From contig JAILPJ010000108.1 of the NCBI GenBank assembly GCA_024699605.1, positions 1 to 48,509 of the forward strand: DNA of 48,509 nucleotides. Direction: 5' to 3'. Below are positions 4,012-31,230 of the stretch, piece by piece. A program made the translations under genes and the position numbers. The first letter of the stretch is position 1; each line of letters starts with the position of its first letter. The DNA comes from Desulfovibrio sp. GTDB lineage: Bacteria; Desulfobacterota; Desulfovibrionia; Desulfovibrionales; Desulfovibrionaceae. Under the pieces are notes generated by a model. That model was not told where the DNA came from. It saw only the letters and a program-made list of their open reading frames with translations, and did no database searches.

Positions 4012-4788
4012 TACGCGTAGCCTGATGCGTCAACGACTCATGAACTTCTAACACAGGCAAAGCAGCGCTTCTTCCAAAAGGAAACACCCCAGTGGAGAAT
4101 ATGGGGATACTCCTTAAGCCTAGCATCATAGCCCAAAGCCGCAATCTGCGCTAAGCCCTCTTCAGCCCGCGTTTCCAGTTGTTCGGTTGTGTTGGCGATC
4201 TTAACCTCAAGACATGCCGCTCGGGCATGCAGGGGATCTCTCAGTAAAATCTCTGCCCGCCCTTCCCCGCTTTCTGCGTTGGACGGCACACGCACGCTCC
4301 CGGAAAAGAGGCCTGCCAAAAGGGCATGATAGGAGTCTTCGCGCAAGTCATAAAAGCTGATGCTCTTCAACAGCAAAGCGCTCACAAGCCGACTCCATTC
4401 CGGCGCATCTCCCCGCCTGAAAGCGGCAGATAAGCCAGTCCTGCACGGCAGTCAAAAATACTTCGCGTAGTTCCCTGTGAGATGAAACAATCTGCGTGAT
4501 TAGAAGACGTTCTGGTCTTGTGAGGATTTTTGACGCATGAGAGATAATCCGGACGTAGAGCAAGCTGAAAACTTCCGCCTCTGAGGCCTTGGCACGATCA
4601 ATAGTGCTTGTCTCTACGAGCCGTGTTTCGACGCTTCCCCCATTCAACAGGCTTTCCAAGGTTTCCCTAAAATCCCAAGCACCTTTTCCCAGAAAAACGG
4701 CTACAATGCTCTTGCTGCTGGTGGGTATCCCATACGGTTTTGGTTCAGCATTTGCATCTTGAAGCAAATCATAAACATAATGGCTATT
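4012..4788. repeat. Long direct repeat, copy 1 (with 13259-14073)
   Basis: About 0.78 kb of DNA strongly similar to 13259-14073 in the same orientation. It starts at the shared TACGCGTAGCCTGA and ends at the shared AAATCATAAACATAAT; flanks on both sides are unrelated. It covers the 3' half of an AAA-ATPase-like gene and about 20 bases past its stop. Such a pair could support recombination that deletes the roughly 9 kb between them, including the whole sensor/permease cluster. Confidence 0.85.
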
Positions 4789-4790
4789 AT
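4012..4790 (-). pseudogene. Decayed 3' fragment of AAA-ATPase-like/PD-(D/E)XK nuclease gene (copy 1)
   Basis: Matches the 3' half of the gene at 13282-14951 almost base for base but is broken. On the minus strand it enters at QDANAEPKPYGIPTSS, runs through LLNGGSVETRLVE and EAEVFSLLY, then loses similarity and frame around 4385-4560 (the segment equivalent to LYATGYLTRVKNG is scrambled and a stop follows). It resumes in another frame as LLLKSISFYDLRED through to the shared C-terminus ending CFACVRSS. The nuclease motif (ESGEGRAEILLRD, CLEVK) survives, although the usual Asp of the GRxD motif is Glu here. No ATPase domain or start is present: similarity to copy 2 stops at about 4788. It is a non-functional relic of duplication or recombination. 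Confidence 0.85.
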
Positions 4791-9557: not shown

Positions 9558-9754
9558 GCCCCTGGGCTGCAAAAGCCAAAGCATGGCAGCGTGCGGAATC
9601 TGCCGCTTTGTTTGGCCTGCCAGGAGTGACTCCTTCAAGATCCTGGGCTTCCCACGTCCAGGGCTGGGTATGGCGTAGTTTTGCCCTTGCTCCAACCAAG
9701 ACTTTCGTCTGATCAGTCGGTCAGACGCTTATCCCGATCAATTCAGGAAAAAGA

Positions 9755-9811
9755 ATGGAGGCGGCGTTTCCTCCCCGGACTTTCGCCCGGGGCTTCCACG
9801 CCGAAAAGCTG
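9755..9811 (+). promoter_or_regulatory. Structured leader with Shine-Dalgarno placed upstream of a hairpin (copy A)
   Basis: GGAGG at 9757-9761 is followed by one base and then the outer stem GGCGT (9763-9767)/ACGCC (9798-9802). Inside is a 20-base inner hairpin at 9773-9792 with arms CCCCGG and CCGGGG, five unpaired bases on each side. Nine bases then lead to ATG 9812. No Shine-Dalgarno sequence lies at normal distance from that ATG. When folded, GGAGG would sit about 10 bases from it. The same layout, collinear base for base, occurs at 20305-20350 before trpS. Confidence 0.6.
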
Positions 9812-10210
9812 ATGACAATGCGCGTTTTGCTGGCGGATGATGAGCGTGATTTTGTGGACACTCTCGCCGAACGCCTCAGCCTGCGCGGCTACGAAGTGAC
9901 GACGGTGCACAACGGCGCAGAGGCTGTCCGTGCTGCCACGAGCGCGCGGCCCGATGTGGCCGTACTGGACCTTTTCATGCCGGGCCTGCCCGGCGATGAA
10001 ACGCTCAGGCAACTGAAGGTCATGTATCCCGATCTGCCCGTCATCCTCCTCACGGGCCACGAAGCGGTAGATGATAACGGCACAAGCCCCGTAGCCAAGG
10101 CTTTTGCCTGTCTGACCAAGCCCTTGGCCTTCAAAGATTTTGTCGCTGTGCTAGAAGCCGCGGCCCGTGCTGGCCGGCAAGCATCAGAGGGAGGCGAAGA
10201 TGGACAATGA
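9812..10210 (+). CDS. Stand-alone receiver-domain response regulator
   Basis: A 132-residue CheY-like protein made of one receiver domain: acidic residues ADDE at 8-11, phospho-acceptor Asp53 in AVLDLFMPG, Thr in VILLTGHE and Lys in CLTKPLAF. There is no output domain, so it acts by protein contact or as a phosphorelay intermediate. An in-frame ATG at 9755 exists, but its 19 extra codons lie inside a folded leader that is duplicated before trpS, where it is non-coding, so the start is placed at 9812 (MTMRVLLADDE). The stop overlaps the next gene by 11 bases. It sits between a full sensor kinase and a kinase remnant. Confidence 0.88.
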   Translation: MTMRVLLADDERDFVDTLAERLSLRGYEVTTVHNGAEAVRAATSARPDVAVLDLFMPGLPGDETLRQLKVMYPDLPVILLTGHEAVDDNGTSPVAKAFACLTKPLAFKDFVAVLEAAARAGRQASEGGEDGQ

Positions 10211-13258: not shown

Positions 13259-14073
13259 TACGCGTAGCCTGAGTCAACGACTCATGAACTTCTGACACAG
13301 GCAAAGCAGCGCTTCTTCCAAAAGGAAACACCCCAGTGGAGAATATGGGGATACTCCTTAAGCATGGCATCATAGCCCAAAGCCGCAATCTGCGCTAAGC
13401 CCTCTTCAGCCCGTTTTTCCAGTTGTTCGGTTGTGTTAGCGATCTTGACCTCAAGACATGCCGCACGGGCATGCTCGGGATCTCTGAGCAAAATGTCTGA
13501 CCGCCCTTCCCCGCTTTCTGCGTTGGACTGCACACGCCCCCCCATCCCGGCGAAGAGGCCGGCCAAAAAGGCATGATAGTAGTCTTCGTGCAAGTCATAA
13601 TAGCTGATGCTCTTCAACAACAAGGAGCTCACAAGCCGACTCCATTCCAGGGCATCTCCCCGCCAGAAAGCGTCAAAAAGCGCTGTGCGATCCATCTGTT
13701 TCAAAGTCGCAAAAAGCCATTCCTGCACGGCATTGAGAAAAACTTCACGTATTTCCTTGTTGGGTAGCACGAGCTCAGCGTAATGAGCAGGCTTTCCGGT
13801 CTTGTTCCCATTTTTGACACGCGTAAGATATCCCGTGGCGTAGAGCAGGCTGAAAACTTCCGCCTCTGAGGCCTTGGCAAGATCAAAAGTGCTTGTCTCC
13901 ACGAGCCGTGTTTCGACACTTTCCCATTCAACAAGCTTTCAAAGGTTTCTCTAAAATCTAAAGCACTTTTTCCCAAAAAATCTGCGACGATGCTCTTGCT
14001 GCTGGTGTTTATCCAATACGGTTTTGGTTCAGCATTGGCATCTTGAAGTAAATCATAAACATAATAGTTAATA
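13259..14073. repeat. Long direct repeat, copy 2 (with 4012-4788)
   Basis: Strongly similar to 4012-4788, same orientation. The left border (TACGCGTAGCCTGA) abuts the omega RNA element; the right border lies within the AAA-ATPase-like gene, which continues beyond it only in this copy. Confidence 0.85.
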
Positions 14074-14951
14074 TCCCATGGGCAATATATATCTTTGTCT
14101 TTTCCAAAAAGATAGCCATCATACCAGTCTTTAATGACTTGTTTTTTCTCAGAAAAATTCGCTTTTTCTATAATTTCGTCTACTTCTTTATCAGTAAATC
14201 CAAACGCATCTGAATATTTTTTATCATCTATACCATAGCATACAAAATTGTTTAATCCCGTAAAAATAGTTTCTTTTGCCATCCGTAGACAGCCAGTCAA
14301 AACAGCAAATTTTAATGCATCATTTCTTTGAAAAGCAGCACTAAACATATTTTCAAGAAAATCAACCATTTCATGATAGTATCCATTAGCTTTGGCATAC
14401 TGCAAGGGGACATCGTATTCGTCGATAAGGATAATCACTGGAAAGCCGTAGTAGCTCTTCAGGGCAGATGAGAGCATGCGTAGTGAATAGATCAGATCAT
14501 TTTTTTGGGCTTTTCCTGACTTCAGAAGGGCAATTTTCGCTTTAAGGTCCTGATCAAGCGTAGTACTTTGAAGAAGAAAGGCGTTGGTATAACACAATTC
14601 AGACAACGTATTGGAAAAATTGGCCAACGCTCTTGAAAAATCGAGATCCTTGACCTCTTTTAAGGAAAGACTAAGAACGGGATACTTATTCATCCACTCT
14701 TTACAGAGCGCAGTGTTCTTGGCAATGGCCAAGCCCTGAAAATACGACGCGCTCTCCTTTTGTCGCGAAAAAAACTCTTCCAGCATGCTCATGGCAAGCG
14801 TCTTTCCAAAACGTCTCGGCCTGGTAATCAAGGAGACTAAGGGACGGTCTGGCGTGAGCAGTTCTTCGATCAAATGGGTTTTGTCCACATAGAGCCTATG
14901 TTCTTCGCGAAAAAGACGAAACGTGTCCCCTCCGACATAGACATTGACCAT
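13282..14951 (-). pseudogene. AAA-ATPase-like/PD-(D/E)XK nuclease superfamily gene with one-base frameshift (copy 2)
   Basis: Full-length gene of the AAA-ATPase-like (PF09820) plus DUF1703 PD-(D/E)XK family, about 556 codons, expanded in many gut bacteria and of uncertain role. The start ATG 14951 (MVNVYVGGDTF) has AGGTG upstream. YVDKTHLI about 21-28 and the P-loop-like LITRPRRFGKT about 41-51 are followed by the Walker-B-like IILIDEYD. The C-terminal nuclease has ESGEGRSDILLRD and CLEVKIAN. At about 13918-13925 a single base is missing relative to copy 1: AATGGGAAAGTGTCG here, AATGGGGGAAGCGTCG there. This shifts the ATPase part out of frame (ending at 13701), while the nuclease part continues from 13902 in another frame. 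The 14050-14400 part is AT-rich, suggesting foreign origin. It could be a sequencing error or slippage. Confidence 0.85.
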
Positions 14952-20304: not shown

Positions 20305-20360
20305 GGAGGCAGCGTTTCCCCCCCGGGCTTTTGCTCAGGGTCTGCACGCTGAAAGACTTG
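20305..20360 (+). promoter_or_regulatory. Structured leader with Shine-Dalgarno placed upstream of a hairpin (copy B, trpS)
   Basis: GGAGG at 20305-20309, one base, then outer stem AGCGT (20311-20315)/ACGCT (20346-20350), enclosing an inner 20-base hairpin at 20321-20340 (CCCCGGGC/GCTCAGGG, loop TTTT). Ten bases lead to ATG 20361. The layout is identical to 9757-9802, with 36 of 46 bases the same. The outer stem differs by a compensatory G-C to A-T change, and the inner stem gains a G-C pair where copy A has A and C opposite. No normally spaced Shine-Dalgarno is present. Confidence 0.62.
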
Positions 20361-21410
20361 ATGAAACAAATCATTCTGACGGGTGACCGACCCACAGGCC
20401 GTCTGCATGTGGGCCACTATGTCGGCTCCCTTAAAGAACGCGTTGCCCTGCAAAATTCAGGAAAGTTTGATGAAATCTATATCATGATCGCCGATGCCCA
20501 GGCCCTCACAGACAATGCCGAGCATCCTGAGCGTGTCAGACATAATATTCGTCAGGTCGCCCTGGACTATCTGGGCTGCGGCCTTGATCCGGAAAAAGCC
20601 GTGATCTTTATTCAGTCCACCATTCCGGAACTGCCTGAACTCACGGCCTATTACATGAATTTAGTGACAGTGGCCCGTGTGCAGCGCAATCCCACAGTCA
20701 AGGCCGAAATTCAGCAGAAAAACTTTGAATCCCATGTGCCTGTGGGCTTTTTCTGCTATCCCATCAGTCAGGCCGCCGACATCACAGCCTTCCGGGCTAC
20801 TGCCGTCCCCGTGGGCGAAGATCAAATGCCGATGCTTGAACAGTGCCGGGAAATTGTCCACAAATTCAACGCGGTCTATGGCGAAACACTGGTCGTGCCC
20901 GAAATAGTCCTGGCCTCCAACAAAGCCTGCCTGCGCCTGCCGGGCCTGGATGGCAAGGCCAAAATGAGTAAGTCCCTGGGCAACTGCATCTATCTTTCGG
21001 ACGATCCCGAAAGCGTGCAGAAAAAAATCATGTCGATGTACACTGATCCCAATCACCTCAAAGCCAGTGACCCCGGCAATCTGGAAGGCAACACGGTCTT
21101 TGTCTACCTCGACGCCTTCTGTCAGGATGCGTATTTTGTGGAATTTCTCCCGGAATACGCCAACCTTGATGAGCTCAAGGCCCATTATCAGCGCGGTGGC
21201 CTAGGCGATGTGAAGGTCAAAAAATTCCTGAATCAGGTTATTCAGGAAGAACTGGCTCCCATCAGAAAACGCCGCAAGCACTGGGAAGAACACTGGGATG
21301 ACGTCGTGGAGATTCTCCGCCAGGGCTGTGACAAAGCCCACGCCAAGGCAGCCGAAACACTGGCCGACGTACGCCGGGCCATGCAGATCAACTACTTTGA
21401 AAACGACTAG
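20361..21410 (+). CDS. trpS: Tryptophanyl-tRNA synthetase
   Basis: A 349-residue class I aminoacyl-tRNA synthetase that charges tRNA-Trp. The HIGH-type motif is GRLHVGHYVG at residues 13-22 and the KMSKS motif is KMSKSLGN near 202-209. Rossmann-fold landmarks such as IMIADAQALTDN and the Trp-binding region VGEDQMPMLEQ are intact, and the length is normal. The C-terminal helix includes RKRRKHWEEH. The start ATG 20361 lacks a nearby Shine-Dalgarno and follows the structured leader at 20305-20360, so translation is probably governed by that fold. A strong terminator follows at 21438. Confidence 0.97.
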   Translation: MKQIILTGDRPTGRLHVGHYVGSLKERVALQNSGKFDEIYIMIADAQALTDNAEHPERVRHNIRQVALDYLGCGLDPEKAVIFIQSTIPELPELTAYYMNLVTVARVQRNPTVKAEIQQKNFESHVPVGFFCYPISQAADITAFRATAVPVGEDQMPMLEQCREIVHKFNAVYGETLVVPEIVLASNKACLRLPGLDGKAKMSKSLGNCIYLSDDPESVQKKIMSMYTDPNHLKASDPGNLEGNTVFVYLDAFCQDAYFVEFLPEYANLDELKAHYQRGGLGDVKVKKFLNQVIQEELAPIRKRRKHWEEHWDDVVEILRQGCDKAHAKAAETLADVRRAMQINYFEND

Positions 21411-30186: not shown

Positions 30187-31116
30187 TCAGGAATGCAGCT
30201 GATCGCGATCCATTTGCATGACCCATTGGGACATGGGGGAAACCCCTGCCGCCTGTTTGGTAGCAAGCCAGTTGATCTCCGATTTGCCACGCTCAAGCAG
30301 GGCCCAGTTGGTAAATTCCATACCCAGGACCAAGGTGGGAACCGGGCTTTCCTGGGTTCTGACATTGCAGATTTTGCAGGCACTCCAATAGATGATCAGG
30401 GGACGATCGAGGGATTGACAATAGACCAGCAAGGCCAGGATCTTGGCGTCTTTTTGGAATTCCTGCTGGCTTCCGTCCAGCGCACTGATGGCAATCTGCA
30501 CGGCCATGCCCGAGGCCGAAACATCCGAGACATGAATGATTTCTTTGTCTAAACCGAAACGATAGTGCAAGAGCGGCTGACCAACCTCATTGGTCTTTTG
30601 CGGCAAAGACTGATCGTCTTTGAAAGGCCAGAGCGCCACAACGCGCACCCTGTCCTTGGGCGGCTCAATACGGTGGAAAAGACGTCGCTCGCCTGAGCCG
30701 ATTTCTTCGGGAAAATGCAGAACGAGCACGGTCTGCCGTTCGGTGTTGCGCACTTCCTTGATCACGGAATGGAATTTGCGGATGGTCACGCCTTCTTTGG
30801 AAAAGATGCGGTAAAAGACATCCACTTCTTCATGGCAAAGGTCGGACGGTAGAAGATTCAAGGCCTCAAACTCCAGCGTATCCGCACCAATTTTTCCCAA
30901 AAGACAGGAAATCGTGTGATAACGGATCTCTGGGTTTTGCAGATTGACCTCGAAGATATTGTTCTGGAGCTGCGCATCTTCCAGCATCTTGAGCAGGGCG
31001 CTCTGATGCTTCTGCCGGTTTTTCTTTTTTTGCTTGAACCTCACAAAAGCCGTCAGCAGAGCCACAACAACGACCAAAACCACCACAAGCACAATGATCA
31101 TCTGTATTTCCGTCAT
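30187..31116 (-). CDS. Membrane-anchored PilZ-domain (c-di-GMP binding) protein
   Basis: A 309-residue protein. An N-terminal helix (MIIVLVVVLVVVVALLTAFV, about 6-25) is followed by the basic stretch RFKQKKKNRQKH, so the body faces the cytoplasm. A YcgR-N-like region comes next, then the PilZ signature: GERRLFHRIEPPKD (RRxxxR near residue 150) and VSDVSASGMAVQI about 50 residues later (the D/NxSxxG motif). It should bind cyclic di-GMP and could act on motility, pili or envelope functions. The start is set at ATG 31116, next to the membrane helix; a 16-residue extension is possible and neither start has a strong ribosome site. It has its own terminator at 30121. Confidence 0.83.
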   Translation of the reverse strand: MTEIQMIIVLVVVLVVVVALLTAFVRFKQKKKNRQKHQSALLKMLEDAQLQNNIFEVNLQNPEIRYHTISCLLGKIGADTLEFEALNLLPSDLCHEEVDVFYRIFSKEGVTIRKFHSVIKEVRNTERQTVLVLHFPEEIGSGERRLFHRIEPPKDRVRVVALWPFKDDQSLPQKTNEVGQPLLHYRFGLDKEIIHVSDVSASGMAVQIAISALDGSQQEFQKDAKILALLVYCQSLDRPLIIYWSACKICNVRTQESPVPTLVLGMEFTNWALLERGKSEINWLATKQAAGVSPMSQWVMQMDRDQLHS

Positions 31117-31230
31117 TATGGTTTTCGGCAGCTTGCGGCCTGCAGGCCAAGCCGCCGCCTCCATCGCAGTATTTCAAAGTGTTCGAAAGAGTCCTGTGAA
31201 ACAAAAGACGCCTTGTCTCAAAACCAAGGC

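Follow-up and report, generated by a model that had tools for sequence, protein, structure and literature searches.

Two unrelated genes in a 48,509-nucleotide stretch of DNA from a Desulfovibrio sp., hereafter the window, are preceded by nearly the same leader. One encodes a receiver-domain protein and the other a tryptophanyl-tRNA ligase (trpS), and in front of each a hairpin separates a GGAGG sequence from the ATG. Here we ask where this leader comes from, why it precedes such different genes and how a ribosome could use it. Hairpin-bridged ribosome-binding sites in single phage genes are known already, as are IscB/TnpB elements and their target motifs. In phage T4 genes 38 and 25, a hairpin between the Shine–Dalgarno sequence and AUG is reported to shorten the functional spacing from 22 to 5 nt and from 27 to 11 nt, respectively (PMC3014915).

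Leader copies in the window

The first-pass annotation had described the two leaders as collinear and similarly folded. Indeed, 9757–9802 and 20305–20350 align without gaps with 36 of 46 bases identical, and folding gave for both GGAGG, directly followed by a 6-bp closing stem, 5-nt internal loops and an inner hairpin. The compensatory change in the outer stem, from GGCGT/ACGCC to AGCGT/ACGCT, is real. A covariance model termed R1, built from 31 leader copies of this genome, scored both copies highly and a third one weakly.

9757..9811, + strand: leader copy 1, preceding the receiver-domain gene (R1 83.9 bits, rank 2 among 129)
9757-9761, + strand: GGAGG of copy 1
9762-9767 with 9798-9803, + strand: closing stem of copy 1
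9773-9778 with 9787-9792, + strand: inner hairpin of copy 1
9804-9811, + strand: linker of copy 1, followed by ATG at 9812
9812..10210, + strand: receiver-domain gene (PF00072, E 1e-21)
20305..20360, + strand: leader copy 2, preceding trpS (R1 73.4 bits)
20305-20309, + strand: GGAGG of copy 2
20310-20315 with 20346-20351, + strand: closing stem of copy 2
20321-20340, + strand: inner hairpin of copy 2
20352-20360, + strand: linker of copy 2, followed by ATG at 20361
20361..21410, + strand: trpS (TIGR00233, E 3.2e-65 over the first 300 aa; PF00579)
31117..31162, − strand: leader copy 3, weak (R1 17.9 bits, E 0.3; fold z −3.05; weak alone)
31162-31158, − strand: GGAGG of copy 3, then its closing stem and ATG at 31116
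30187..31116, − strand: gene of unknown family after copy 3

In the predicted fold of copy 1, the closing-stem pairs have a mean probability of 0.96 and GGAGG is unpaired at 0.77; the AUG of the trpS leader is mostly paired (unpaired 0.14). The folding energies of the two leaders are unremarkable (z −1.1 for copy 1 and −0.3 for copy 2); the evidence lies in the leader family. With up to 3 mismatches allowed, the pattern GGAGGCNGCGTTTCC matches the window 14 times, where 6.8 matches are expected; it is exact in these two leaders only. Rfam gave no match in the window at the gathering score; at a permissive threshold, a 301-nt region yielded five sub-threshold matches, four of them to snoRNAs, which we judge to be chance.

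The gene behind copy 3 has no match in NCBIfam at E ≤ 1e-20 or in Pfam at E ≤ 1e-5. Its start is more likely at 31116 than at 31164, as given in the ORF list, because the latter overlaps the leader's GGAGG. The listed ATG of the receiver ORF, at 9755, likewise overlaps GGAGG of copy 1, and start-codon annotation is thus affected at both genes.

A leader family at start codons

With 150 of 1162 candidates in the 2.76-Mb genome scored, R1 returned 129 matches at E ≤ 1. They correspond to 128 distinct sites; one palindromic site was matched on both strands (C17:18804 opposite C17:18790, with only a CTG there). An ORF of at least 50 aa starts within −6 to +3 nt of the model ATG at 123 of the 128 sites, and an ATG lies exactly at the model position at 121. 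A lack of further copies upstream of start codons, which the first-pass annotation had named as a refutation, is thus not what the genome shows. One such leader, at C73:1816, precedes a 333-aa ORF. The five sites with no ORF of this length at the model ATG are C17:18790, C101:10433, C30:42229, C64:29077 and C24:4916. This list is incomplete, in that copy 3 of the window shows the full leader anatomy despite an R1 E-value of only 0.3.

In a pattern search, exact copies of GGAGGCNGCGTTTCC occur 51 times genome-wide, and at up to 2 mismatches there are 153 matches versus 32 for the reversed-pattern control. Among 32 of the 51 exact copies, read by eye, a start codon follows shortly after the stem in 31. 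The exception, L006 (C17:18790-18870), and L183 of the cyanobacterial genome G184 have two arms that form an almost perfect long palindrome, in L006 CAGCGTTTCCTCCC...GGGAGGAAACGCTG. Leaders in tandem were found at C24:4830-4995.

We scanned 40 of the genes that follow, namely 39 sampled at random from 120 ATG cases and the gene starting at 31116; 14 had no match at E ≤ 1e-20. The others are unrelated and include threonyl- and tryptophanyl-tRNA ligases, ribosomal protein S1, acetate kinase, ketol-acid reductoisomerase, a relative of phosphoglycerate dehydrogenase, lumazine synthase, IspH, alanine racemase and transport proteins. Genes for GAPDH, phosphoglycerate kinase, aspartokinase, aspartyl-tRNA ligase and HU-like proteins were recognised by eye from their protein starts. 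Several followers are usually essential (ribosomal protein S1, thrS and trpS, and by eye aspS and pgk), and in these no other Shine–Dalgarno sequence is visible near the ATG.

Conserved anatomy and predicted folding

The leaders share one architecture: GGAGG, a closing stem, a variable inner hairpin, the other strand of the stem, 7–12 nt and ATG. Alignment A4, with 106 rows, covers 98 of the 123 loci and holds 19 of the 31 training copies and one row at E 0.3. Left out of it are L006, L262 and 23 loci with high scores, of which 12 are training copies; one partial row (L303:1311-1376 and L265) repeats another copy. L006, having no ATG at the expected place, is also omitted from A3, an alignment of the 32 exact copies.

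After dropping the three rows, of 106, that lack a start codon, GGAGG and ATG are 30–78 nt apart (mean 49.7, s.d. 6.7) and the linker after the closing stem measures 7–12 nt (mean 8.7, s.d. 1.1), figures to be read in the light that R1 models ATGA, linker and stem and that A4 was fitted to R1, so that weak matches are selected for the counted features. Thus, in 103 of 106 copies the Shine–Dalgarno sequence is too far from the ATG linearly and at a working distance once the stem is folded, and the collapsed spacing is near-constant. The proposal of the first-pass annotation that folding brings GGAGG close to the ATG therefore agrees with the spacing, given the predicted fold.

The closing stem covaries, as that annotation had suggested. 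Standard pairs fill 97.1% of its cells, with 124 double-change cells versus 38 in shuffles; the number of pairs showing double changes is not in excess (9 versus 8.3 in shuffles; 222/500 shuffles). At the second pair, 73 copies have A-U and 25 have G-C; trpS orthologues of other species have, by reading, U-A there (CUGCG/CGCAG), most clearly in G159 and G177. In other lineages the whole closing stem is re-written with pairing kept, as read in a cyanobacterium (CGCGCA/UGCGCG and CGCGGCU/AGCCGCG) and in other Desulfobacterota (GCGCCGU/ACGGCGC and GGGCGU/ACGCCC). The hypervariable inner hairpin is eroded in weak copies: among the weakest third of those aligned, a set biased by R1, the inner part is degenerate, and what remains is GGAGG (94–100% per position) together with the closing stem.

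Folding predictions place GGAGG unpaired at 0.58 versus 0.25 with the interior shuffled (first 60 of the 106 copies, one shuffle each). Over all 106 copies the mean is 0.54, reaching a probability of at least 0.5 in only 58, and the closing stem forms with a probability of at least 0.5 in 82.

Such a structure could in principle act as a switch, and the first-pass annotation had suggested sensing of a ligand or of temperature. In that case the conserved UUUCCUCC would pair with GGAGG and switch translation off, with a ligand, temperature or a protein selecting the state. A GGAGG-CCUCC pairing does form on an isolated 26-nt 5' fragment (−6.9 kcal/mol), and UUUCCUCC recurs across phyla, though it is part of one search pattern. 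In full leaders, however, GGAGG is predicted to pair with the next 30 nt at a mean probability of only 0.11; the trpS copy of the window has CCCCC instead of CCUCC; UUUCC decays in weak copies, by reading; and the named follower genes share no common pathway. The combination expected of a riboswitch or an RNA thermometer, an alternative structure hiding the Shine–Dalgarno sequence together with a signal common to the target genes, was not found, nor was any conserved switch beyond the hairpin. The idea of sensing is not borne out, and we regard a regulatory leader as the least likely of the alternatives weighed here, a very remote one. The loop is better explained as a piece of a transposon end.

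Relation to IscB and TnpB elements

Comparison across genomes provides good support for identifying the leader with the target-side terminal hairpin of iscB- or tnpB-bearing IS200/IS605-superfamily elements. IscB and TnpB are relatives of the ancestors of Cas9 and Cas12. Both cyanobacteria and other Desulfobacterota contain the same hairpin next to a full-length gene for one of these two proteins. It adjoins full-length IscB in G186 (E 5e-79) and G648 (E 3e-109). Full-length TnpB is divergent from it, with the start 39–60 nt from GGAGG, in the cyanobacteria G184 and G185 (E 5e-113 to 3e-117) and in G031 (E 5e-101).

In G172 and G177, near-identical cassettes precede different genes; their similarity spans the IscB/TnpB sequence plus the leader and ends at (A/G)TGA(A). 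IscB sequence was detected beside 11 of 13 similar copies in G172, and TnpB beside 6 of 11 in G177, the copies with neither being short or cut by contig ends. Truncation on the far side is graded, with lengths that in G172 run from about 650 down to 59 nt and in G177 from at least 400 down to 67 nt. The first-pass annotation's view of a recurrent, mobile module common to unrelated genes is thus upheld by the 128 genomic sites and by a leader that travels with IscB/TnpB elements.

Traces of such elements are also present in the genome of the window. With a cutoff of 8 bits, an HMM made only from the IscB C-termini of G184 and G186 matched 10 of the 129 upstream regions and none of the downstream or reverse-complement controls; at 5 bits there were 14 upstream matches and one control match. 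A DNA profile was then made from 9 remnants found by this HMM. At 10 bits or more it matched 24 upstream regions versus 3 reverse complements, which also score because the remnant is partly palindromic. Its match in the window lies directly upstream of copy 1:

9701..9755, + strand: iscB C-terminal coding remnant (DNA profile E 2.2e-10, 35.1 bits; reverse complement 6.7 bits)

This remnant indicates that copy 1 descends from an IscB/TnpB-type element. The profile detected no iscB remnant upstream of the trpS leader of the window, whose descent from such an element is suggested by leader similarity. Within the remnant of copy 1, at 9706-9727, lies an inverted repeat, CGTCTGATC/GGTCAGACG, that folds strongly alone. 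Four IscB-remnant loci were recorded in this genome: those on C73 and C76 adjoin a leader, and those on C36 and C114 have no leader match nearby.

The A-rich AGGAAAA sequence upstream of GGAGG was considered as the gene's own displaced Shine–Dalgarno sequence; as a general explanation this was dropped, the sequence lying in the iscB remnant and end region where remnants exist. Nor do the left boundaries, which are graded, fit a two-ended MITE whose left end is constant. As for membership in the REP/RAYT group, the genome encodes Y1_Tnp proteins, one good (E 9.8e-41) and one split, and no link between them and the leaders was found.

The HEARO RNA family RF02033 was found with a full-length iscB of G172 (L217, E 2e-23) and in L216 of G184, and was absent at the gathering score from two G186 loci (L218, L223). 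The full-length IscB element of G172 has as its own downstream end a decayed leader that is not at ATGA, and the full-length IscB elements read in G184 carry another end, not the leader hairpin. A related element end lacking GGAGG, and ending at TTTGATGA, occurs in G618, of another Desulfobacterota family (L372 and L375; two read of three R1 places). It offers a natural contrast by which a need for GGAGG in mobility could be told apart from a need in translation only. In the Symploca record G185, leaders L181 and L187 are preceded by a shared sequence with neither a long IscB nor a long TnpB ORF, perhaps a structured RNA.

Distribution and turnover

R1 matches occur in 13 of 41 genomes of the genus, own genome counted, and 28 have none. 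In the family and phylum samples, for which 31 and 11 candidates per genome were scored, matches were found in at least 7 of 149 and at least 7 of 395 genomes, own genome counted, both lower bounds. R1 also misses variants, the U-A trpS leaders having been found only via the protein. A pattern scan of species genomes found the leader in rumen Desulfovibrio, in the Deltaproteobacteria record Gx485_bin195 (56 R1 matches) and in the cyanobacteria Prochloraceae and Symploca; one leader pattern gave no match in viral contigs. Family-wide pattern counts have a background in other genera of mostly 0–5 per genome, with a maximum of 9, and only large excesses over it were used: 92 in G000, 84 in G203, 63 in G182, 33 in G174 and 31 in G200.

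By eye, 7 of 10 close trpS orthologues, fetched by protein, carry the leader, some of them of the U-A type or imperfectly paired, and G182, G162 and G158 have none. Sequence comparison thus indicates gain or loss of the trpS leader; the upstream region in the leaderless G182 is too diverged to prove insertion. In addition, G187 and three genomes with no R1 match (G068, G040 and G114) have one GGAGGCTGC...CGCAGAACATT-ATG leader each, resembling the trpS version. If trpS is the gene that follows them, this leader may have a long history in the genus.

Inner parts turn over at fixed sites. At a common leader site in G172 and G218, which are 92% identical over 1.6 kb, the inner hairpin and linker differ and GGAGG and the closing stem are kept: one leader has been overwritten by another. 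One attempt at a clean empty site, with the flanks of L167, found the leader in both of these close genomes. Sister genomes, in a leader-biased sample, have orthologous leaders with different inner hairpins. The orthologue table, used only for sequence comparison as most of its loci were fetched for bearing a leader, has 42 rows with a leader, 11 with none and 2 unclear among 55, for 37 of 120 genes.

The single overwriting event allows for a different history, in which a leader born in the host was later captured, or used as a landing site, by IscB/TnpB elements and spread by gene conversion. Copies within a genome also resemble each other more than orthologues do, by eye and in a biased sample, and the U-A trpS leader occurs in genomes with few or no R1 matches. 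Against this history, the same end is attached to TnpB/IscB in cyanobacteria with few copies (8 and 3) and to an element in G648, a Desulfobacterota genome with two copies; the leader sequence moves with the element to different genes; and more than half of the genus genomes, the 28 mentioned above, have no R1 match. A host origin thus appears very improbable to us, and the leaders are more readily derived from the element ends themselves.

The junction motif and start codons

At the hairpin-side junction, all 36 examined copies (13 of 22 in G172, 11 of 11 in G177, 1 in G161, 8 in G184 and 3 in G185) have (A/G)TGA by eye, a motif that the script itself had picked. Of the other G172 copies, five that were read precede ORFs and four were not included. 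In G186, one TTGA, a TTG start, was seen among 19 copies read of 56. HEARO elements were reportedly described in 2009 as integrating 5' of ATGA or GTGA. The motif also agrees with NNRR, reported as the target-adjacent motif of OgeuIscB (PMC9640706). Ending at (A/G)TGA would explain why copies sit at start codons.

An ORF of at least 50 aa opens at the junction in only 23 of the 36 copies (11 of 13 in G172, 6 of 11 in G177, 0 of 1 in G161, 4 of 8 in G184 and 2 of 3 in G185). Each of the 19 copies read in G186 is followed by an ORF of at least 70 aa. Set beside these 19 and the 123 of 128 sites here, the lower fraction suggests that insertion needs the (A/G)TGA motif and that long-term retention needs a gene start.

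Enrichment at start codons could also arise by another route, from the (A/G)TGA preference plus loss of harmful insertions. The leaders would then be passive debris: start codons often provide an (A/G)TGA, gene-breaking insertions disappear, the hairpin is kept for the transposase only and GGAGG is translationally idle. A junction motif in 36 of 36 copies with an ORF behind only 23 fits this reading, and hairpins recognised by the transposase are expected at IS200/IS605-type ends. It fits less well with GGAGG and the closing stem outlasting the inner part in the weakest third of copies (subject to the model bias), with usually essential genes that carry the leader and show no other Shine–Dalgarno sequence near the ATG, with the presence of a leader in 7 of 10 close trpS orthologues, some with a different compensated stem, or with the 19 of 19 in G186. 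Idle debris is, in our estimation, an unlikely explanation, and exaptation of the transposon ends for translation the one we pursue.

A putative model

Taken together, the data make it quite probable that the leaders are exapted transposon ends with their own ribosome-binding site, standing as decayed solo ends at about 123 start codons. In the putative model, elements that sit immediately 5' of (A/G)TGA could land at ATGA(A) start codons. The element end would then read, on the sense strand of the gene, GGAGG, closing stem, internal loop plus inner hairpin, the other strand of the stem, 7–12 nt and the host ATG. Insertion would separate the gene from its own ribosome-binding site, for which the element end would substitute: the 30S subunit would bind GGAGG with the stem folded and meet the AUG 7–12 nt away. 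Later decay of the elements would have left mainly solo ends that are truncated on the 5' side, a part of them still preceded by an iscB remnant. The inner hairpin would drift or be overwritten by other copies, and GGAGG, closing stem and linker length would be retained. This translational role is drawn from anatomy and covariation, from which we infer that ribosomes initiate across the folded stem and that selection keeps the leaders for initiation. Solo ends may have multiplied by a transposase acting in trans or by nuclease-triggered gene conversion, two candidate routes.

A broader proposal, to which we incline only slightly, is that this class of IscB/TnpB transposons targets start codons via (A/G)TGA and has acquired, at the end that faces the target, a translation-initiation region complete in itself. 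Insertion would swap the host ribosome-binding site for the element's own instead of silencing the gene; by such a harm-avoiding design the class would have been able to reach several phyla, and in one bacterial lineage more than 100 genes, usually essential ones included, would now carry domesticated solo leaders.

The proposed leaders would work like T4 genes 38 and 25, by a hairpin that shortens the spacing between Shine–Dalgarno sequence and AUG. Unlike the dispersed leaders, known from sequence, those are single phage genes tested by mutants and reporters (PMC3014915), and the T4 case shows no sign of homology or mobility. IscB/HEARO (OMEGA) and TnpB elements of the IS200/IS605 superfamily, to whose terminal hairpin the leader corresponds, are known for guide RNAs and transposition. 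REPINs and REP sequences, MITEs and putative mobile promoters are short palindromic or regulatory repeats, partly transposon-derived and present in many copies per genome. The leaders resemble them as short, many-copy, transposon-derived repeats; to our knowledge, those repeats are not sense-oriented at start codons and are not known to supply a Shine–Dalgarno sequence. IStrons, transposons with self-splicing introns, are an analogy in that they reduce the cost of their own insertion, but by RNA splicing and not by replacing a ribosome-binding site. Within the open-access literature, which leaves most subscription papers outside, we found no element ends described as translation leaders or at start codons by hundreds.

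If the model is true, a transposon can do little harm even where a gene is most sensitive to insertion, and the translation of more than 100 genes in one genome can become dependent on transposon ends; if confirmed, it would mean that a transposon distributed ready-made translation start signals across a genome. The family is a natural library of split ribosome-binding sites, with more than 100 variants in one genome, on which initiation by 30S subunits across a folded stem can be tested directly; it also offers a new view of the ends and target choice of IscB/TnpB elements.

Apart from the leaders, two blocks of the window about 9.25 kb apart, 4026-4790 and 13270-14074, are 70–94% identical. 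They contain ORFs for a PD-(D/E)XK nuclease (PF08011, 4038-4385) and an AAA-ATPase-like protein (PF09820, 13701-15092), and look like the product of a duplication, one of the copies lying in smaller ORFs.
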